Shown here: positions 18,447-56,598 of the stretch, piece by piece
How positions within the stretch are numbered: the stretch's first letter is position 1
Layout of the letters: every line of letters begins with the position of its first letter
Assembly: GCA_000688775.2 (NCBI GenBank)
Contig: CP007628.2
Coordinates: 372,001 to 436,000, forward strand
Source: Streptococcus sp. VT 162
GTDB taxonomy: Bacteria > Bacillota > Bacilli > Lactobacillales > Streptococcaceae
Length of the DNA: 64,000 nucleotides
Direction of reading: 5' to 3'
Program-made: the position numbers and the translations under genes
The notes under the pieces: generated by a model
What the model saw: the letters and a program-made list of their open reading frames with translations, nothing else
What the model was told of the DNA's origin: nothing
The model's database searches: none

Positions 18447-18556
18447 GGAGGATTACCCAAGTCCGGCTGAAGGGAACGGTCTTGAGCTGAAGAGGACGGT
18501 TTGCTAAATCGTTAGGTCGGGTAACCGGCGCGGGGGTTCGAATCCCCCATTCTCCG
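18447..18556 (+). tRNA. aberrant chimeric tRNA-Ser (about 20 nt too long)
   Basis: 110 nt from GGAGGAT to ATTCTCC plus G; a normal tRNA-Ser is about 90. The 5' part (18447-18485) reads as a tRNA-Ser(TGA) up to its anticodon loop (GGAACGGTCTTGA). It is then joined to GCTGAAGAGGACGG and the rest of a tRNA-Ser(GCT), with anticodon TTTGCTAAA, a long variable arm and a T-arm GGGGG-TTCGAAT-CCCCC. The GCTGAAG D-arm segment therefore occurs twice. Either a recombination product of two tRNA-Ser genes or an assembly collapse; folding into a working tRNA is doubtful. Confidence 0.75.
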
Positions 18557-32466: not shown

Positions 32467-32548
32467 ATATTAGAGTTACTAAATGTCATTTAAAATGGAA
32501 AATAAGAGGAAATTTTCAGGATTTTCTAGATTTTCACTGTAAATACAC

Positions 32549-32575
32549 TTGACTATTCACAAATAGGTGTATAAT
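32549..32575 (+). promoter_or_regulatory. promoter of the leader preceding the ECF operon (likely former pnuC promoter)
   Basis: TTGACT (32549-32554) and TATAAT (32570-32575) with a 15-bp spacer. A second TATAAT at 32661-32666 has no good -35. Base composition is host-like, unlike the ECF genes that follow. Confidence 0.65.
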
Positions 32576-32581
32576 GTGTTG

Positions 32582-32720
32582 TGAACTACTTAACAAATAA
32601 AGATTTCCAGCTCATGTCGACTAAGGATGGAAATCTTGTGTATAGACAGTTCAGTAGATATATAATAGAGCGTTGCGTCCGAAAGTCTATCCAGACACGG
32701 CTCTTTAAAAACAAAAGGAG
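32582..32720 (+). promoter_or_regulatory. structured 5' leader, candidate NAD+-II (PnuC-motif) riboswitch
   Basis: A perfect 9-bp hairpin (AGATTTCCA 32601-32609 with TGGAAATCT 32628-32636) is followed by an H-type pseudoknot: ATAGAC (32642-32647) with GTCTAT (32685-32690), and AGAGC (32667-32671) with GCTCT (32700-32704), the pairs interlocking. The ribosome site AGGAG (32716-32720) is 12 bases later. The NAD+-II riboswitch of streptococcal pnuC genes is described as an H-type pseudoknot near the ribosome site. I cannot match its consensus by memory, so the class is a hypothesis. Confidence 0.45.
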
Positions 32721-32726
32721 AAGATT

Positions 32727-33329
32727 ATGAAAACAGAACCGATTCATCGTACCAGTATGTGGAAATTTAAGTTAAGTGCTGCCACCATGACTTTGATTCC
32801 CGCTGCCGTGGGGATTAACTATGTTGCCAAAGCCTTGGCGGAGGGGTTAAAGTTGCCCGTTTGGCTGGGGTCTTTGGGAACCTTTCTTACCAGCATGTTG
32901 GCTGGGCCGGTTGCCGGTGCCATTAGTGGTTTCATCAACAACGTGATCTATGGGCTGACCTTATCGCCAATTTCAACCGTGTATGCGATTACCAGCATCG
33001 GAATTGGGATTGCTGTCGGAGTTTTGCACGCCAATGGGTGGTTCTCGTCAGCGCGAAGAGTATTTGTTTCTGCTATTATTATTGCCATCGTTTCAGCTGT
33101 CATTTCAACGCCACTCAACGTCATCTTTTGGGGTGGTCAGACCGGTATCGCTTGGGGTGACTCATTGTTTGCGGTAATGGTCGCCAATCATGCACCAGTG
33201 TGGCTGGCCTCATTTACCGATGAGTTTGTCTTGGATATTTTGGATAAAGTCTGTGTGGCCTACCTGGCACTCTTCATCTATCGTCAGCTGCCGAAGCGGA
33301 TGGTGCACTTCTTTAGCGATGATAAATGA
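32727..33329 (+). CDS. ECF transporter S component (substrate-specific subunit)
   Basis: Encodes 200 aa with about six hydrophobic segments. LPVWLGSLGTFLTSMLAGPVAG and the following Gly/Ser-rich helix match the ECF S-component fold, and the helix 1 region has small residues for T-subunit contact. Substrate not recognised; S components of this class carry vitamins or their precursors. AGGAG lies upstream. It overlaps the T gene by 4 nt. GC content and codon use (GCC, CTG, CGG) exceed those of streptococcal neighbours, suggesting import from another lactic acid bacterium. Confidence 0.82.
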   Translation: MKTEPIHRTSMWKFKLSAATMTLIPAAVGINYVAKALAEGLKLPVWLGSLGTFLTSMLAGPVAGAISGFINNVIYGLTLSPISTVYAITSIGIGIAVGVLHANGWFSSARRVFVSAIIIAIVSAVISTPLNVIFWGGQTGIAWGDSLFAVMVANHAPVWLASFTDEFVLDILDKVCVAYLALFIYRQLPKRMVHFFSDDK

Positions 33330-34120
33330 TGACTGATAAAACATTGATTTCTGGAGCGCCACGGGTCAAGCTCAAGTGGTACCAAGTGATCGATCCGATT
33401 ACTAAGCTCTTGTTCATCTTGGACATGACGTTGTTGAGCTTTGCCAGTATGAATTTATTGCTTCAGGCCGGATTAATTCTTGTCGCAACACTGCTATTGT
33501 TATTTTCCAAATTGAGTTCTACCACCTTTAAGGCGCTGGGATTCAGCCTGTTTCTGATTTGCACCATGCTGATCATCCAAGGGTTATTTTACAGTCGGAA
33601 TCAAACTGTGCTGTTTTCTGTGCTTGGGGTGTCGTTCTACAAAGAAGGCCTGATTTACGCCACCACTCTGGGTTGTCGAGTATTGGTGATTATTTTGACC
33701 AGTGGCTTTTTTATGGTGACCACGAGTATTTCAGAAAACGCGGCCTATTTGGAACTGTCCGGATTGTCTTATAAAACCGTCTACGTTCTGATGTCGGTGT
33801 GTTATATTTTGCCGGAAATGATGCGCAATATGCGGAAAATCCAGCAGGCACAAAAAGTTCGCGGAACCAATCCGCAAAAAACGTTGATTCAGAAATTAAA
33901 GTCAGTCCTGCCGGTTCTAATTCCATTGGTGATTAAGACCTTGGATCAATCGATGACGCGGTCGATTTCTCTCCAACTGAGAGGTTTTGATAATCTCAAC
34001 CGGACTGTCAGAACCTCCCAGCGCGTGTATCGCCTGTCGCGGACGCTGCACATTGGTCTGACTGGATTGGCAATTTTATTGATTGGGTGGAAGATATGGA
34101 CGAAGATAAACGGATTGTAA
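33326..34120 (+). CDS. ECF transporter T component (transmembrane coupling subunit)
   Basis: Encodes 264 aa. Four to five N-terminal and central membrane helices are followed by a long cytoplasmic coupling region. That region has the two Arg-Gly coupling motifs of EcfT, KVRGTNPQK and LQLRGFDNL. These helices bind grooves in the two ATPases and transmit ATP hydrolysis to the S component. It is a dedicated (group I) T subunit, being in one operon with its own S, A1 and A2 genes. GC-rich relative to the window. Confidence 0.88.
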   Translation: MMTDKTLISGAPRVKLKWYQVIDPITKLLFILDMTLLSFASMNLLLQAGLILVATLLLLFSKLSSTTFKALGFSLFLICTMLIIQGLFYSRNQTVLFSVLGVSFYKEGLIYATTLGCRVLVIILTSGFFMVTTSISENAAYLELSGLSYKTVYVLMSVCYILPEMMRNMRKIQQAQKVRGTNPQKTLIQKLKSVLPVLIPLVIKTLDQSMTRSISLQLRGFDNLNRTVRTSQRVYRLSRTLHIGLTGLAILLIGWKIWTKINGL

Positions 34121-34932
34121 TTGAAAATTTGACCACCCGTTATCCGGGTACTGAGCAACCACAACTGCGTCAGATTAACGCGGAGGTTCATACCGGCCAG
34201 GTGGTTGGTATTATCGGGAATAGCCACTCTGGCAAATCGACTTTGTGCCGTGTGCTGGCAGGGGTCATTCCCAAAATTGTGTCTGCTAAGATTGAGGGCG
34301 ATTGGCACATGTTTGGCCAGCGAGTGTCTGACAATTGGCCCGTTTATAATGCCATGAATGGAGTTGTACTGCAAAATCCAGCTGGCCAACTAAGCGGGTT
34401 GGCAGACACGGTTGCCGATGAAATCGCCTTTGACTTGATTAATCAGGGAATGGCTGAAGGACTGATTCAAAAACGGGTTGAAGAAGTTGCCACGCAAATG
34501 GGGCTGATTGAACAGCTGAATTTGCGTCCCGAGAGCCTTTCCGGTGGTCAGATCCAGCGGTTGGCAATTGCCACGGCGATTGTGGCTAATCCGGCTGTTT
34601 TGATTATGGATGATCCGACCAGTGAGATGGATCCCCTTGGCCGCCGGCAATTTTTCCAATGGCTGGCCCAAGTCAAAGAGACGACTGTCTTCATTGTCAC
34701 CAGTGAAATTGACGATTTGTGCGAAGTCGCCGACGTTGTGTGGGTGCTGCACGAGGGTCAAATGGTAGCCCAGGGCAGGCCGGGTGAGGTGTTTAATCAT
34801 TTGGCAGCTGACTGGCAGATTCCAGCCCCGACAATCCAGCAACTTGCTCAAAAAATGGATTGGCACTTGGCTGATGGCCGGTATCCGGTGAATTACGCTG
34901 ATCTGAAGGAGGTTCGTTATGTCCACAATTGA
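34096..34932 (+). CDS. ECF transporter ATPase A1 with degenerate catalytic residues
   Basis: Encodes 278 aa from the ATG at 34096 (GGTGG upstream), overlapping the T gene by 25 nt. Walker A is GNSHSGKST and the signature LSGGQIQRL is canonical. Walker B reads VLIMDDPTSEMD, with Asp in place of the catalytic Glu. The switch loop reads IVTSEIDD, with Ser in place of the usual His. It therefore supplies a good signature motif but a weak or dead hydrolytic site. It should pair with A2, whose motifs are complementary. Confidence 0.88.
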   Translation: MDEDKRIVIENLTTRYPGTEQPQLRQINAEVHTGQVVGIIGNSHSGKSTLCRVLAGVIPKIVSAKIEGDWHMFGQRVSDNWPVYNAMNGVVLQNPAGQLSGLADTVADEIAFDLINQGMAEGLIQKRVEEVATQMGLIEQLNLRPESLSGGQIQRLAIATAIVANPAVLIMDDPTSEMDPLGRRQFFQWLAQVKETTVFIVTSEIDDLCEVADVVWVLHEGQMVAQGRPGEVFNHLAADWQIPAPTIQQLAQKMDWHLADGRYPVNYADLKEVRYVHN

Positions 34933-35719
34933 ACTGAGCCACCTGACGTTCACTTATCCGGAACGGTCCTTTAGCTTGGATGTTGAAGACAAACACTTCG
35001 CCGATCCGATGGTGGCGATTGTCGGCCAAAATGGTGCCGGCAAATCAACGCTCTTCAAATTGTTGACGGGTTTGCTGACACCACAAACCGGTGTGATTAA
35101 GATCGATGGAGAAAATTTTAATGATCTTAAACCAGTCGAAAAGTTACTGAAGGTTGGGATTACTTTTCAGAATCCTGACGATCAGCTTTTCAACCCGACC
35201 GTTCTACGAGAGGTGGAGTGGAATGTCGCGCAGGTCATGGATGACCACGACACGATTACGAGGCGGGCTTTAGCGGCTCTAAAAAGAGTTGGCTTGGATG
35301 ATAAAACAGCTGAAAGTCCATATGACCTGTCATTGTCGGAACGCAAGCTGTTGAGCGTTGCCACAGTTTTGGCAGTGGATCCGGCGATTTATTTATTTGA
35401 TGAGCCGATGATGTCGCTTGATTGGGAAAGCCGGCGCAAGTTGACCGCAATTTTCCATCAGTTGGCTGATTCGGGCCACCAAGTTGTGACCATCACCCAT
35501 GACATGGATTGGGTCGCCGCCGAGTTTGAGTCAGTGTATGTTATGGAACACGGGAAGTTTGGCTTCGCCGGCAGTCCACGGGAATTGTTCAGCAATCACG
35601 AACTTGTCCAGCGAGTGGGATTACTACCACCGCGGATTATGGACATAGCGGAGTCGCTGGGTGATTCACAGACATATTTATCGGTTAATGATTATTGCCA
35701 GAAAAATCGAGATGTATAG
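34919..35719 (+). CDS. ECF transporter ATPase A2 with degenerate signature motif
   Basis: Encodes 266 aa, ribosome site AAGGAGG. Walker A GQNGAGKST, Q-loop TFQNPDDQLFNPT (the ECF-type NPDDQ), Walker B IYLFDEPMMSLD with catalytic Glu, and H-loop TITHDMD are all normal. The signature is LSLSERKLL instead of LSGGQ. Together with A1 this leaves one competent composite ATP site (A2 Walker/Glu/His plus A1 signature) and one degenerate site. Last gene of the ECF operon, followed by a hairpin. Confidence 0.88.
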   Translation: MSTIELSHLTFTYPERSFSLDVEDKHFADPMVAIVGQNGAGKSTLFKLLTGLLTPQTGVIKIDGENFNDLKPVEKLLKVGITFQNPDDQLFNPTVLREVEWNVAQVMDDHDTITRRALAALKRVGLDDKTAESPYDLSLSERKLLSVATVLAVDPAIYLFDEPMMSLDWESRRKLTAIFHQLADSGHQVVTITHDMDWVAAEFESVYVMEHGKFGFAGSPRELFSNHELVQRVGLLPPRIMDIAESLGDSQTYLSVNDYCQKNRDV

Positions 35720-35720
35720 A

Positions 35721-35799
35721 AAAAGTCACCTCTGCGGGTTTTCCAGGTTGAAGGATTAACTTCAGCTTCTGGCAAGAACTCACATGGGTGACTTTTGTG
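35721..35799 (+). terminator. ECF operon terminator (long loop)
   Basis: AAAAGTCACC (35721-35730) pairs perfectly with GGTGACTTTT (35787-35796). The loop contains a smaller hairpin-prone stretch. A few T follow. Confidence 0.6.
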
Positions 35800-35800
35800 T

Positions 35801-35929
35801 TTAATAACGTTTCATGATCATCGGGTGCTTCCTCAGATCACTCGGTTTGATTTTACTTTGTTTCATGGTCATAATCATATACCATTTCTTTTGGATTTTT
35901 TGTTTGACTAATACAAAATAGGTCTTCAT
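35801..35929 (-). CDS. 42-codon basic ORF, unrecognised
   Basis: Starts MKTYFVLVKQKIQKKWYMI on the minus strand, 42 aa, with many Lys and Met. It lies between the hsdS fragment and the ECF terminator and has no clear ribosome site. It may be a fragment of a plasmid gene or spurious. Confidence 0.2.
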   Translation of the reverse strand: MKTYFVLVKQKIQKKWYMIMTMKQSKIKPSDLRKHPMIMKRY

Positions 35930-35943
35930 AGGTCTTCGCATTT

Positions 35944-36105
35944 TTAGCGCCCATTAGGATCATCAGTATAATTTTCTGAATTAGGAGACTGTCCCATCAC
36001 TATTCGAACTTCGTCTCCCAACTTACGCTGTTCCCATTCATCCGTGAATCCTTTAAATCGCAATTCTGGAACTTTCTTTTTAACTGAATCATCTATTTTC
36101 GCCAT
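35944..36105 (-). pseudogene. hsdS: 5' fragment of type I restriction specificity gene hsdS
   Basis: A 53-codon frame beginning MAKIDDSVKKKVPELRFKG and continuing through GFTDEWEQRKLGD and MGQSPNSENYTDDPNG. This is the N-terminus of HsdS, the DNA-recognition subunit of type I restriction-modification. It is cut at the point where the first target-recognition domain should begin, and ends in a stop two codons later. The ATG overlaps the end of the DUF536 gene by 13 nt. The order repB-orfX-hsdS is that of lactococcal theta plasmids. Confidence 0.82.
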
Positions 36106-36569
36106 AGTCCCCACCATTTTATTGGTTTTTCTTGTTCTTCTATCCTTTTTTGATCTTTGATTTGTTCCTGTAAATTTTCCAACTTCTCTTTAAGAGCGTT
36201 CACTTCATCTTTATATTGATTGTCTAAGTGTTTGAATTCTGTTTCCTGTGAGGGCATTTTGAGGGCTTTTAAGTTATCATTTTCCGCCTTGTATTCTTCT
36301 AGCAACTTTTTATCTTGCAAGGCTAATCGTTGTTACTGGTCTAACAAATTAGTTAATTTTTCTATTTGTTGGTCTTTGGTATTTGATTTGCTACTACTTT
36401 CTACTTTACCTAAAATTATTTTTTCTGCTTTAGAATTTATTAGATTAGACCCATTGGAACTTTTAAGCTGTAATTCTTTTGGTAACCTTTGGTAGTGATA
36501 TTGAATATTTTGTTTTGTAACACTCAACTCATCCGCCAGCTCTTTGATCGTTTTTAAGTCTTCACTCAT
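36093..36569 (-). pseudogene. plasmid replication-associated DUF536 protein (orfX/RepX) with internal stop
   Basis: The minus-strand frame begins MSEDLKTIKELADELSVTKQ, a helix-turn-helix, and runs to LTNLLDQ, where a TAA (36335-36333) interrupts it. The same frame continues as QRLALQDKKLLEEYKAEND and a coiled coil to WWGLWRK. One base change of a Gln codon explains the stop, and the joined product would be about 158 aa. DUF536 proteins are encoded directly after repB on lactococcal and lactobacillus theta plasmids and influence plasmid stability. It overlaps the RepB-like gene by 8 nt. Confidence 0.85.
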
Positions 36570-37257
36570 GGTTTAAGTCCTGCCTTTTAACCGTTGGTAG
36601 ATATTGTTCAATGGCTTTTTTGAGGTAGCGTGCGATATTATGCTTAGAATATTCTTCACGTCTGCTGGCAACATAAGACAAGTGGTCTTTAACACTATTT
36701 AGCCCTCTTAATTCTTTCAGTTCGTCATAGAGGGGGTAAACATGGACTTGCAATCCTGCCATGATTTTTGTATCTTGCATTTCAAACGGACTTAGCAACA
36801 TATTTTCTAGCAATAGCGTGGTGTACTTGCTTTTCATTGCTTCAATAGCTAGCTTATCTTCGGTTTCTGCTTTGCGTGCTTTATCTTCTTGATAGGCGGT
36901 ATCTTCTAATTTATAGCTGTTATCGTCTGCTCGACGTTTCTTTCGTAACCAGATATCCAATGTTAAACCGTCCGCATCAATCGCTCGATAGAGATAATGC
37001 CAACGCCCCTTAATTTTGATATAGGTTTCATCCATTTTCCACGAATAGAAGGACTGTTTATTTTTCTTTTTCCAGAGATGATAGAGGATTTTACTGTATT
37101 CTTGAACCCACCGATAAATCGTAGTGTGACAAACATTTATTCCACGGTCATAAAGCAATTCCTGAACTTCACGATAGCTCAGATTGTAACGTAGGTAATA
37201 ACCAACAGCGACAATGATGACGTCTTGTTGGAATTGTTTGCCTTTAAAATGATTCAT
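36562..37257 (-). CDS. fusion ORF: IS6-family transposase N-terminus joined to plasmid RepB C-terminus
   Basis: Encodes 231 aa. Residues 1-110 are the N-terminal half of an ISS1/IS1216-type transposase (MNHFKGKQFQQDVIIVAVGY, HTTIYRWVQEYSK, SWKMDETYIKIKGRWHYLYR) with only the first catalytic Asp. From about residue 112 (RADDNSYKLED) the protein is the C-terminus of the lactococcal-type theta initiator RepB, ending YLPTVKRQDLNHE. The second Asp and the Glu of the transposase, and the DNA-binding N-terminus of RepB, are missing. The junction is in frame. Neither parental activity is expected. The IS terminal repeat is not seen upstream of the ATG. Confidence 0.88.
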   Translation of the reverse strand: MNHFKGKQFQQDVIIVAVGYYLRYNLSYREVQELLYDRGINVCHTTIYRWVQEYSKILYHLWKKKNKQSFYSWKMDETYIKIKGRWHYLYRAIDADGLTLDIWLRKKRRADDNSYKLEDTAYQEDKARKAETEDKLAIEAMKSKYTTLLLENMLLSPFEMQDTKIMAGLQVHVYPLYDELKELRGLNSVKDHLSYVASRREEYSKHNIARYLKKAIEQYLPTVKRQDLNHE

Positions 37258-37293
37258 CTCTCAAGCCTTACTAACCTTTTTTCTGCTCTTTGA

Positions 37294-37803
37294 GAAGCTG
37301 AAGGTCGTGCTAGTAACTACCTTTTTGGCTTGATTAACTCTGTCATTTACCTTATTTTGGCTTTGCAGAAAGGCTTTTATGGTGAGGTGCTAACGACACT
37401 CTACTTTACGGCCATGCAGCCAATTGGACTTTTAGTGTGGATCTACCAAGCACAGTTTAAAAAGGAAAAACAGGAGTTTGTCGCACGTAAACTGGACGGC
37501 AAGGGCTGGACCAAGTATCTTTCCATTAGTGTTCTTTGGTTGTTGGTATTTGGATTCATCTATCAGTCTATCGGAGCCAATCGTCCTTATCGCGATTCCA
37601 TTACTGATGCGACCAATGGGGTAGGGCAAATCCTCATGACAGCTGTTTACCGTGAACAATGGATATTCTGGGCAGCTACCAATGTCTTTTCTATCTATCT
37701 CTGGTGGGGAGAAAGCCTGCAAATCCAAGGGAAATACCTGATTTACTTGATCAATAGTCTAGTTGGGTGGTATCAGTGGAGCAAGGCAGCAAAGAGTGCT
37801 TAA
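37294..37803 (+). pseudogene. pnuC: pnuC (nicotinamide riboside transporter), 5' part deleted
   Basis: The frame opens after a TGA at 37291-37293 and reads EAEGRASNYLFGLINSVIYL and on to the normal C-terminus (about 169 codons). PnuC is usually 230-260 aa, so roughly the first 80-90 residues and the start are gone. Retained motifs are LFGLINSVIYL, MQPIGLLVWIYQ and VGWYQWSK. PnuC facilitates entry of nicotinamide riboside. Upstream, instead of its start, is the truncated IS. Translation from the TTG at 37330 would have no ribosome site and would lack the first helices. Confidence 0.85.
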
Positions 37804-54780: not shown

Positions 54781-54786
54781 ATTCTC

Positions 54787-55041
54787 AACAAATCAGAAAA
54801 GTAACTATTTTTGATCTTCAGGGAGCCTGTGGTGATTGTGAACAGGTGGTTGGAAGTAGTGAAAGTGGGCTGATTTTAAAAATGAATTTGAAACAATGAA
54901 AATTCGGTGCGCACACCTTACAGTGCAACTTGTTGTTAGACAAGGCAGAGATGTAAAGGGGAATAGTCCCTTTATAATTGAGGTGGCACCGCGTTACCAA
55001 CGCCCTCACACGGAAGTAGATTCTGTGTGTGGGCTTTTTTC
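54787..55041 (+). promoter_or_regulatory. T-box riboswitch 1 (tryptophan, by context)
   Basis: T-box core AATTGAGGTGGCACCGCG at 54976-54993. Terminator arms GCCCTCACAC (55002-55011) and GTGTGTGGGC (55025-55034), then TTTTTT. The preceding 180 nt forms stem I-III. TGG triplets occur in the stem I region (e.g. GGTTGGAAG), compatible with a Trp specifier. It precedes the extra trpB. Confidence 0.92.
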
Positions 55042-55171: not shown

Positions 55172-56350
55172 ATGACAACTAAAGGTTATTTTGGACAATT
55201 TGGTGGTAGTTTTGTACCGGAGCCGATTCAGGCTTTGTTGGATGAGTTGGAAATGACATTTGACAAATACAAGGATGATCCAGAGTTTTTGGCAGAATTT
55301 TGCCATTACTTGAAGGATTATTCTGGTCGCGAAACACCGCTTTATTTTGCGGAAAGTTTGACAGATCACCTAGGTGGGGCTAAGATTTATCTCAAGCGCG
55401 AAGATCTTAACCATCTTGGTTCTCACAAGCTCAACAACGTTTTAGGGCAAATCCTTCTTGCCAAACGTATGGGCAAGAAACGAGTGATCGCAGAAACAGG
55501 GGCTGGTCAGCACGGGGTTGCGACAGCTGCAGCTGCAGCCAAGTTTGGTATGGCCTGTGATGTCTACATGGGGGCAGAAGATGTGGAACGTCAACGTCTC
55601 AATGTTTTCCGTATGGAAATGATGGGAGCGACCGTTCACGCGGTTGAAACGGGGACACGAACTCTTAAGGATGCGGTCGATGCAGCCTTTGGAGCATGGA
55701 TGAATGATCTTGAAGCTTTCTACGTTTTGGGATCTGCTGTAGGTCCTCATCCTTATCCTACCATTGTTCATGAATTCCAAAAGGTCATCAGTGAAGAATC
55801 TCGCCGTCAAATTTTGGAAAAAGAAGGACGCTTGCCAGACTACGTCATTGCCTGTGTAGGTGGTGGTTCCAATGCCATCGGTGCATTTTCTCAGTATGTG
55901 GCTGATGAAGAAGTCAAATTGGTTGGGGTCGAAGCTGCCGGTCACGGACTTGACACAGACAAGCACGCAGCCACTATGACAAAAGGTAGTGTCGGAATTG
56001 TCGATGGTATGAAGACTTATGCAGTCTTTAAGGAAGATGGAGAGCTGGCGCCAGTTTACTCTATCTCAGCTGGTTTGGACTATCCAGGGGTTGGTCCAGA
56101 ACACGCCTACTTTAAAGACTCAGGTCGCGTAGAATATGTGGCAGCGACAGATGAAGAAGCTGTTCAAGCCTTGCTCCTTCTTAGTAAGACAGAAGGGATT
56201 ATCCCAGCGATTGAAAGTTCGCATGCCATCGCAGAAGCAGTTAAACGTGCACCGAAACTAAGTAAAGATGAGATTATCATCATCAATGTCTCTGGTCGTG
56301 GAGACAAGGACGTAGCTGCGATTGCAGACTACCTAGAAGCTAAAAAATAA
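55172..56350 (+). CDS. second tryptophan synthase beta chain (TrpB paralogue)
   Basis: Encodes 392 aa from the ATG at 55172 (AAAGAGGAAAAA upstream). PLP Lys86 in [10 protein letters not shown], catalytic Glu108 in AETGAGQHG, phosphate-loop GGGSNAIG and the C-terminal NVSGRGDKD are all present. It is therefore catalytically plausible. It differs from the operon TrpB (60911-62134) in the PLP loop (HLGSHKLNN for HTGAHKINN) and in length. It has no trpA of its own and sits between two T-boxes. Roles could be indole salvage or a partner-free Ser/Thr reaction. Confidence 0.9.
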
Positions 56351-56359
56351 GAGATGGAA

Positions 56360-56598
56360 AAATTACAGTCTTTTCTTTCCCAGAGAGCTTGTGGTTGCTG
56401 GAAACAAGCAGAGAAAGCTGTAAGGTTGGGTCCATCTGAAACGAGAGAAGAAAACATAATTCTCAAGGGAGTGCCCTTTATCGCACAGCCTGTTACAGGA
56501 AGGTTCTGAGACAGGAATGAGAGATAGGAGAAATCCTATAATTGAGGTGGTACCGCGAATTTCGTCCTCACGCAAGTTATTTTGCGTGGGGATTTTTC
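56360..56598 (+). promoter_or_regulatory. T-box riboswitch 2 (tryptophan, by context)
   Basis: T-box core AATTGAGGTGGTACCGCG at 56540-56557. Terminator arms TCCTCACGCAA (56565-56575) and TTGCGTGGGGA (56582-56592), then TTTTT. I find no convincing promoter between the paralogous trpB stop and this leader, so transcripts probably arrive from the first promoter and are checked a second time. Confidence 0.92.

Follow-up and report, generated by a model that had tools for sequence, protein, structure and literature searches.

We describe here the pnuC locus within a 64,000-nucleotide stretch of Streptococcus sp. VT 162 DNA (assembly GCA_000688775.2, contig CP007628.2, positions 372,001 to 436,000 of the forward strand; hereafter the window, in whose numbering all positions are given). 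At 32540–37803 the S-T-A-A' operon of an energy-coupling factor (ECF) transporter, together with plasmid debris, stands in place of the 5′ third of pnuC. Judging by the letters of the leader, a riboswitch of the NAD+-II class (NAD+, nicotinamide adenine dinucleotide) now directly precedes ecfS, the gene for the substrate-binding S component. Leaving the substrate aside, we are confident that an ECF operon of plasmid origin captured this riboswitch and would now be under the control of NAD+. We offer more tentatively, and at somewhat under an even chance, the wider proposal that this is the first ECF-type importer of nicotinamide riboside, that it displaces PnuC in about half of the sampled switch loci and that it is the second gene of the riboswitch.

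The leader of the ECF operon

The aptamer occupies 32667–32721 on the forward strand, with P1 formed by 32667–32671 and 32700–32704 and P1a by 32685–32688 and 32693–32696. Its letters are those of the crystallized S. parasanguinis NAD+-II RNAs except in the variable P1a loop, as given in the part of PMC10085692 available to us. The motif GGAG (32717–32720, forward strand) is the Shine–Dalgarno sequence of ecfS, whose start codon comes 6 nt later, and is also the 3′ side of the regulatory pseudoknot, pairing with 32676 and 32678–32680 by the published numbering. In the pnuC loci the first ATG stands 2 or 5 nt after the Shine–Dalgarno sequence, and ecfS starts where pnuC started. From the aptamer literature (the discovery of the class, a switch found with pnuC, in PMC7749635, and the aptamer structures in PMC10085692, both in the portions accessible to us), high NAD+, nicotinamide mononucleotide (NMN) or nicotinamide riboside would be expected to close the switch and stop the translation of ecfS, and low NAD+ to open it.

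The leader of the window precedes pnuC in other streptococci and is thus the native pnuC leader. The likely promoter of the native pnuC transcript, now lying 5′ of the ECF operon, consists of TTGACT and TATAAT separated by 15 nt (32549–32575, forward strand); it was read by eye and is missing from the promoter scan, which demands a spacer of 16–18 nt. In 12 other loci the bin that covers this region (32500–32600) has 90–99% identity to the window. Among 284 Streptococcus genomes the leader was found in 83 at E below 1e-12, with four more giving short weak matches alone. Including that of the window, 42 of these 83 leader loci lie before the ECF operon and 41 before pnuC (82 loci were examined besides the window's, two pnuC-type ones, L167 and L168, being classed from coordinates). 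The pairs of P1 and of the Shine–Dalgarno pseudoknot are kept in 41 of 41 ECF leaders (locus L139 dropped), the pseudoknot is likewise kept in 41 of 41 pnuC leaders, and the window keeps all pairs. The loop variant UAAACA of the crystallized RNA occurs at 20 loci, 19 of them before the ECF operon.

Some features of the leaders weigh against the capture and the control by NAD+. The outer pair of P1a is kept in 39 of the 41 ECF leaders and lost in two (L117 and L133), and two (L103 and L117) are altered at a core position where the pnuC leaders show no variation. The nested fold of the leader is no more stable than those of shuffled sequences (z −0.05), which a pseudoknotted aptamer would allow but which lends it no support. 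The conservation of the leader may also partly reflect hitch-hiking, because the spread of the operon is recent (see below). A search of the leader against Rfam 15 gave no riboswitch match even at E 10, and that release seems not to include the NAD+-II class; around the S genes of 24 other loci Rfam gave six matches, none of them directly upstream of S on the same strand. A pattern for the riboswitch core was found at 17 of 93 tested loci, all 17 being named streptococci; the pattern missed L183 and L189, which have one changed base each, and L211 is a gene fragment without the leader. The same pattern did not find the core in the lactococcal plasmid copies.

Gene content and plasmid origin

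The four ECF genes overlap and are intact on the forward strand over 32727–35719, the map of the first-pass annotation being right in outline here and in the debris that follows. They are ecfS (32727–33329), for which the best curated match, NF045596, falls below its cut-off; ecfT for the transmembrane coupling protein (33326–34120, PF02361); and two genes for ATP-binding cassette ATPases, ecfA (34087–34932, PF00005, best family TIGR04520, below cut-off) and ecfA' (34919–35719, PF00005, best family TIGR04521, below cut-off). A T component and two ATPases in one operon identify an ECF transporter. These genes had been called GC-rich, and their windowed GC content (0.43–0.52) is indeed above that of the flanks (about 0.36–0.47), albeit by a modest difference. 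On the reverse strand follow a 5′ fragment of hsdS (35944–36117), which has no match in Pfam or NCBIfam and lies where several matching plasmids are annotated with a restriction endonuclease subunit S; a broken orfX of RepB-like/DUF536 type (36093–36569, in pieces 36093–36320 and 36333–36569), recognized from the open reading frames and the plasmid matches; and the C-terminus of RepB fused to the N-terminus of an IS6 transposase (36562–37257; PF06430, L. lactis RepB, 7.3e-57; NF033587, 153.5 bits). The insert ends with 26 bp at 37275–37300 on the forward strand, after which comes the pnuC remnant (37301–37803, forward strand; TIGR01528, 169.2 bits), delimited by comparison of the junctions. 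In a pnuC-type genome with the empty site (G007), homology to the window stops at 32730 and restarts at 37300, with 284 bp of pnuC in between. Intact pnuC frames elsewhere have 263–273 codons, so that about 95 codons have been lost here and about 63% of the frame is left, in agreement with the two-thirds first noted.

The lactococcal-type plasmid origin suggested from the gene order alone held up. The annotated plasmids matching the region are pNZ4000, pG328, pIMAU11823B and one Lactiplantibacillus plantarum plasmid. The six best plasmid matches have 93.9–98.4% identity averaged over joined pieces, the long pieces are 97.7–98.6% identical to the region, and the plasmid ECF operon alone is 97.9–99.0% identical to the streptococcal copies. 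The RepB C-terminus, orfX and hsdS pieces stand in the order of a lactococcal theta plasmid with high identity, the RepB N-terminus being missing. On pNZ4000, pG328 and pIMAU11823B an ECF operon 98–99% identical to that of the window, as it also is on the fourth plasmid, is followed by orfX and repB on the other strand, whereas the upstream DNA is different and has no riboswitch core. Plasmid homology begins at 32708–32710, just 5′ of ecfS, and the DNA upstream of the plasmid ecfS copies is unrelated to the leader up to the common AAAGGAGAA; whatever promoter the plasmids use is therefore absent here. The S component is annotated as hypothetical on 20 of 29 plasmid records, and a literature search for cobalt transport as a name of the lactococcal operon found nothing on the operon.

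Junctions and a proposed route of entry

The left junction (32714–32722, forward strand) is AAAGGAGAA, 9 nt that the leader of pnuC has in common with that of the plasmid ecfS. Plasmid-derived DNA thus begins at the Shine–Dalgarno sequence of ecfS and not at 32540, where the first-pass annotation had started the replaced segment; what lies upstream is the native pnuC leader. The 26 bp at the right end of the insert recur without a mismatch on plasmids, some 50 bp upstream of ecfS: they correspond to DNA that ends 33 nt before AAAGGAGAA and ecfS on pIMAU11823B, with a counterpart at the same distance from ecfS on NZ_CP110852. The right end thus matches DNA that directly precedes ecfS, so that the insert's two ends lie side by side on the circular plasmid. 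The CTG with which the plasmid DNA closes is also found right before the junction point in L142, a native allele.

The simplest account of these junctions, as we infer it, is a single crossover followed by a deletion. A circular plasmid of lactococcal type, carrying ecfSTAA', hsdS, orfX and repB with a copy of IS6, would have joined the streptococcal chromosome by a single crossover at AAAGGAGAA. A later deletion through the second copy of AAAGGAGAA into pnuC would have taken about 95 codons of pnuC, the second Shine–Dalgarno sequence and 33 nt of plasmid DNA from the 5′ side of ecfS. The outcome, as seen in the sequence, is that the pnuC leader with its predicted NAD+-II aptamer abuts ecfS and that the plasmid's own upstream DNA is gone. 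None of the 42 ECF loci is an intermediate with both genes whole.

A probable single capture and its spread

In the 284 genomes the S component is full-length in 40 at an identity of at least 96%, split in one (G141), damaged in one (G002) and a fragment in one (G143). Every one of the 40 full-length S genes stands behind the leader. The leader followed by ecfS is also seen at 19 of 20 named streptococcal loci taken from the species collection (S. oralis, mitis, infantis, australis, parasanguinis, rubneri, vestibularis and unnamed species), the remaining one being a fragment. In the 100-bp bins from the leader to 37300 that lie outside 33000–35500, twelve further full-length loci have 97–100% identity to the window, the exception being one leader bin of L103 (92%). 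Past 37300 the identity drops to 78–84% in ten loci and to 94–96% in two; on the left side it declines less sharply. Over the 80 bp next to the insert, pnuC is closest to S. parasanguinis-like alleles in 10 of 13 full-length loci, with 89–92% identity to L142; this group comprises L140–L142 and was so labelled from its loop and from named S. parasanguinis leaders. Farther on the alleles switch to oralis/mitis-type, and about 19 S. parasanguinis-like pnuC bases are kept beside the insert in the window. In a tree of the operon, in which some outgroup rows are partial, the 41 streptococcal copies form one clade (support 0.989) adjoining the plasmid copies, and they differ from each other by no more than about 1.4% on average.

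The capture thus apparently took place in a species other than that of the window and was followed by spread through recombination. The cassette would have arisen once, probably in an S. parasanguinis-like genome, and then have spread among oral streptococci by homologous recombination, the debris and the pnuC remnants eroding on the way, as the mosaics, the tree and the deletion forms suggest. Two other histories can be weighed against this one. The first-pass annotation proposed that IS6 assisted the integration that brought in the operon, and an IS6 transposase remnant does lie near the right end, similar IS6 copies being common on such plasmids. Yet the insert is not bounded by complete IS6 ends: the remnant has neither terminus nor inverted repeat, no insertion sequence (IS) end is present at either junction and the left end has no IS at all. 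At the right junction the IS DNA is joined, at a common CCTTTTTTCT, to non-IS plasmid DNA from upstream of ecfS. We rejected IS6 transposition as the integrator on these grounds and regard it as very improbable. It might also be supposed that the operon is an old chromosomal streptococcal locus from which plasmids took it up, given that it occupies the same site in 42 of 284 genomes of the genus. This we consider barely credible, and an old chromosomal origin was rejected on the near-identity of the insert across loci and the single clade: plasmid repB, hsdS and orfX debris is attached to it, the insert is nearly identical where the neighbouring pnuC differs by 4–22%, and the streptococcal copies lie within the small average divergence given above. 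The first-pass annotation had named an arrangement common to all mitis streptococci, with intact flanks, as evidence against its reading, and this applies by half: the arrangement is widespread, but not ancestral, given that pnuC is the gene behind the leader at 41 of the 83 loci.

Selection and decay

Of the 42 loci, 39 have no break in any of the four ECF frames, as would be expected if these genes are what is being kept; the exceptions are L079, where T contains a stop, L083, where S is frameshifted, and L139, which is damaged throughout. The last locus, from genome G002, is 83% identical over its whole length. We rejected it as an old divergent copy and read it as a poor assembly, since gaps and stops run all through its ECF genes and the identity of egtU is just as low and gapped; it was dropped where stated. 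The ratio of nonsynonymous to synonymous polymorphism (pN/pS) of the streptococcal alleles, counted along a minimum spanning tree, is 0.27 for S, 0.28 for T, 0.37 for A and 0.35 for A'. Less favourably for the idea of maintained function, the ratio between the window and the four plasmids taken singly ranges from 0.25 to 0.96 on 8–16 changes per gene; with so wide a spread and so few changes, selection is shown by the pooled streptococcal alleles alone.

The plasmid part has decayed, as the first reading of the sequence had supposed, and the IS6–RepB frame is broken in 7 of the 13 loci that still hold it. The pnuC remnant starts at residue 65 in 13 loci including the window, at 82 in one, 110 in one, 126 in five, 172 in four, 184 in one and 224 in 13 (approximate tblastn positions on a 245-residue reference; for the class at 65 the true junction is near residue 79). 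No remnant was detected in the fetched stretch of four loci, among them L139 and one cut by a contig end. At the pnuC-type loci 35 of 38 readable frames are intact (L096 is interrupted by a stretch of N; L167 and L168 were excluded), and pnuC is thus also mostly kept under the switch. In three loci pnuC under the NAD+-II leader contains a stop, which falls at codon 6 for L097 and L100 and at codon 56 for L101; some genomes are thus losing the pnuC allele itself to decay.

The transported substrate

Modelling predicts that the ecfS product has an S fold like those of other ECF S components. In sequence comparisons it reaches 89.9 bits against NF045596 (the CD3073 family; curated cut-off 180 bits), and its matches in the PDB are a weak one to ThiT (E 0.047) and a ribosomal protein. 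We examined the gene neighbourhoods of its homologues (the best 80 of 173 relatives without the named streptococci, to which plasmids and six streptococcal loci were added). Among distant homologues (42–55% identity), a nucleoside phosphorylase gene (PF01048) lies immediately upstream in 26 of 43, compared with none of 26 near homologues. In Lacticaseibacillus zhaodongensis (L209) a gene for an NrtR-type NAD regulator (PF21906 and NUDIX) is found directly upstream of ecfS. On an L. gasseri plasmid (L158) an NrtR-pncB-pncA-like cluster lies 1.6–4.4 kb upstream, with a recombinase fragment between. The best 40 of 92 pncB matches place this gene on at least 15 of the 29 plasmids with the S gene, these plasmids being related and the genes up to about 19 kb apart.

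In this context, an NAD+ precursor is the most likely cargo of the transporter. Nicotinamide riboside fits the hints together, because of the phosphorylase, NrtR and pncB neighbours, the PnuC transporter that was replaced and the NAD+ switch in front; it is our first choice, at close to an even chance. Several results tell against this assignment. The queried NAD genes are absent beside 24 of the 26 near homologues, and full-length NadR was found in none of 22 lactobacillus genomes with the ECF operon. The one phosphorylase tested has uridine phosphorylase (TIGR01718) as its best family, below the cut-off. The gene nadR (E below 1e-50) was also tried as a discriminator and rejected as not informative, being found in 35 of 42 ECF genomes (in G171 with stops) versus 27 of 41 pnuC genomes. 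Most ECF genomes keep nadR, and in the genome of the window another intact pnuC stands next to nadR at a distant site (G000:C1:1932834-1934663), so that loss of the pathway was not what forced the swap.

We may wonder at this stage whether the capture was an accident, the ECF transporter importing uridine, another nucleoside or some other cargo unrelated to NAD+, and the Shine–Dalgarno match having arisen by chance with no metabolic logic. A crossover requires merely 9 nt of common sequence, and both the uridine phosphorylase affinity of the tested neighbour and the few NAD genes beside near homologues would suit such a reading, which has real weight, although we doubt it. It accounts poorly for a pseudoknot that is intact in every readable ECF leader, for ECF frames that are kept while their neighbours erode, and for the independent NAD links on lactobacillus replicons, with NrtR beside ecfS in one and pncB on about half of the related plasmids. 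Import of nicotinamide or nicotinate rather than nicotinamide riboside seems unlikely. The pncA-like and pncB genes of L158 do belong to nicotinamide and nicotinate salvage, and the lack of full-length NadR in all 22 lactobacillus carriers points in the same direction; against this, the phosphorylase neighbours of the distant family indicate a nucleoside and the replaced gene belongs to the nicotinamide riboside transporter family (TIGR01528).

Six streptococcal genomes (L160–L165) have a second ECF S-T-A-A' operon, about 42–51% identical, which follows a nucleoside phosphorylase gene; in four of the six a regulator of CRP type is present as well. This operon is likely a separate nucleoside importer. 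S components about 34% identical to the ecfS product are also encoded on two archaeal plasmids of Haladaptatus (NZ_CP111041.1 and NZ_CP085306.1).

Relation to known systems

The system is closest to the NAD+-II riboswitch found with pnuC (PMC7749635, in the part accessible to us), with which it shares the aptamer letters, the Shine–Dalgarno pseudoknot and the genus; there pnuC is the controlled gene, whereas here it would be an ECF S component derived from a plasmid. The accessible part of the same paper (Panchapakesan, 2021) mentions a second, 'hypothetical' gene of the class, left unidentified and lying near a transposase. The full-length streptococcal ECF form has an IS6 transposase remnant nearby, and ecfS is probably this gene. 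PnuT with thiamine pyrophosphate (TPP) riboswitches and PnuX with flavin mononucleotide (FMN) riboswitches, both named in that part of the paper, are comparable in that a vitamin riboswitch marks the cargo of a transporter. In those cases one transporter family is found with different switches, whereas here one switch would have passed to a different transporter family. The operon differs from the ECF vitamin transporters ThiT, RibU, FolT, PanT, BioY and NiaX (the niacin S component, named in the part of PMC6593275 available to us) in having its own T-A-A' genes, and its S component reaches no curated substrate family, ThiT being the best match of solved structure. For the CD3073 family, its best curated match, the match table gives no substrate. 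A search of open-access literature, covering titles and the beginnings of abstracts, found among the papers listed no link between an ECF transporter and either the NAD+-II riboswitch or the uptake of nicotinamide riboside.

Elsewhere in the window, a pair of T-box leaders with almost the same score is found on one strand, separated by 1.56 kb (54785–55010 and 56347–56572). After two tRNA-Met genes, a third and weaker tRNA match of 110 nt in Rfam (18447–18556) was not called by ARAGORN.

If the proposal is true, a riboswitch has passed from one transporter family to another, unrelated one by recombination at the very Shine–Dalgarno sequence that it masks. A foreign gene could thus take over a resident riboswitch when this sequence is common to both. 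The 'hypothetical' second gene left open by the discoverers of the NAD+-II class would gain an identity, and a widespread orphan ECF family a concrete substrate prediction. The alternative alleles, pnuC or ECF, at one and the same locus would constitute a natural experiment.

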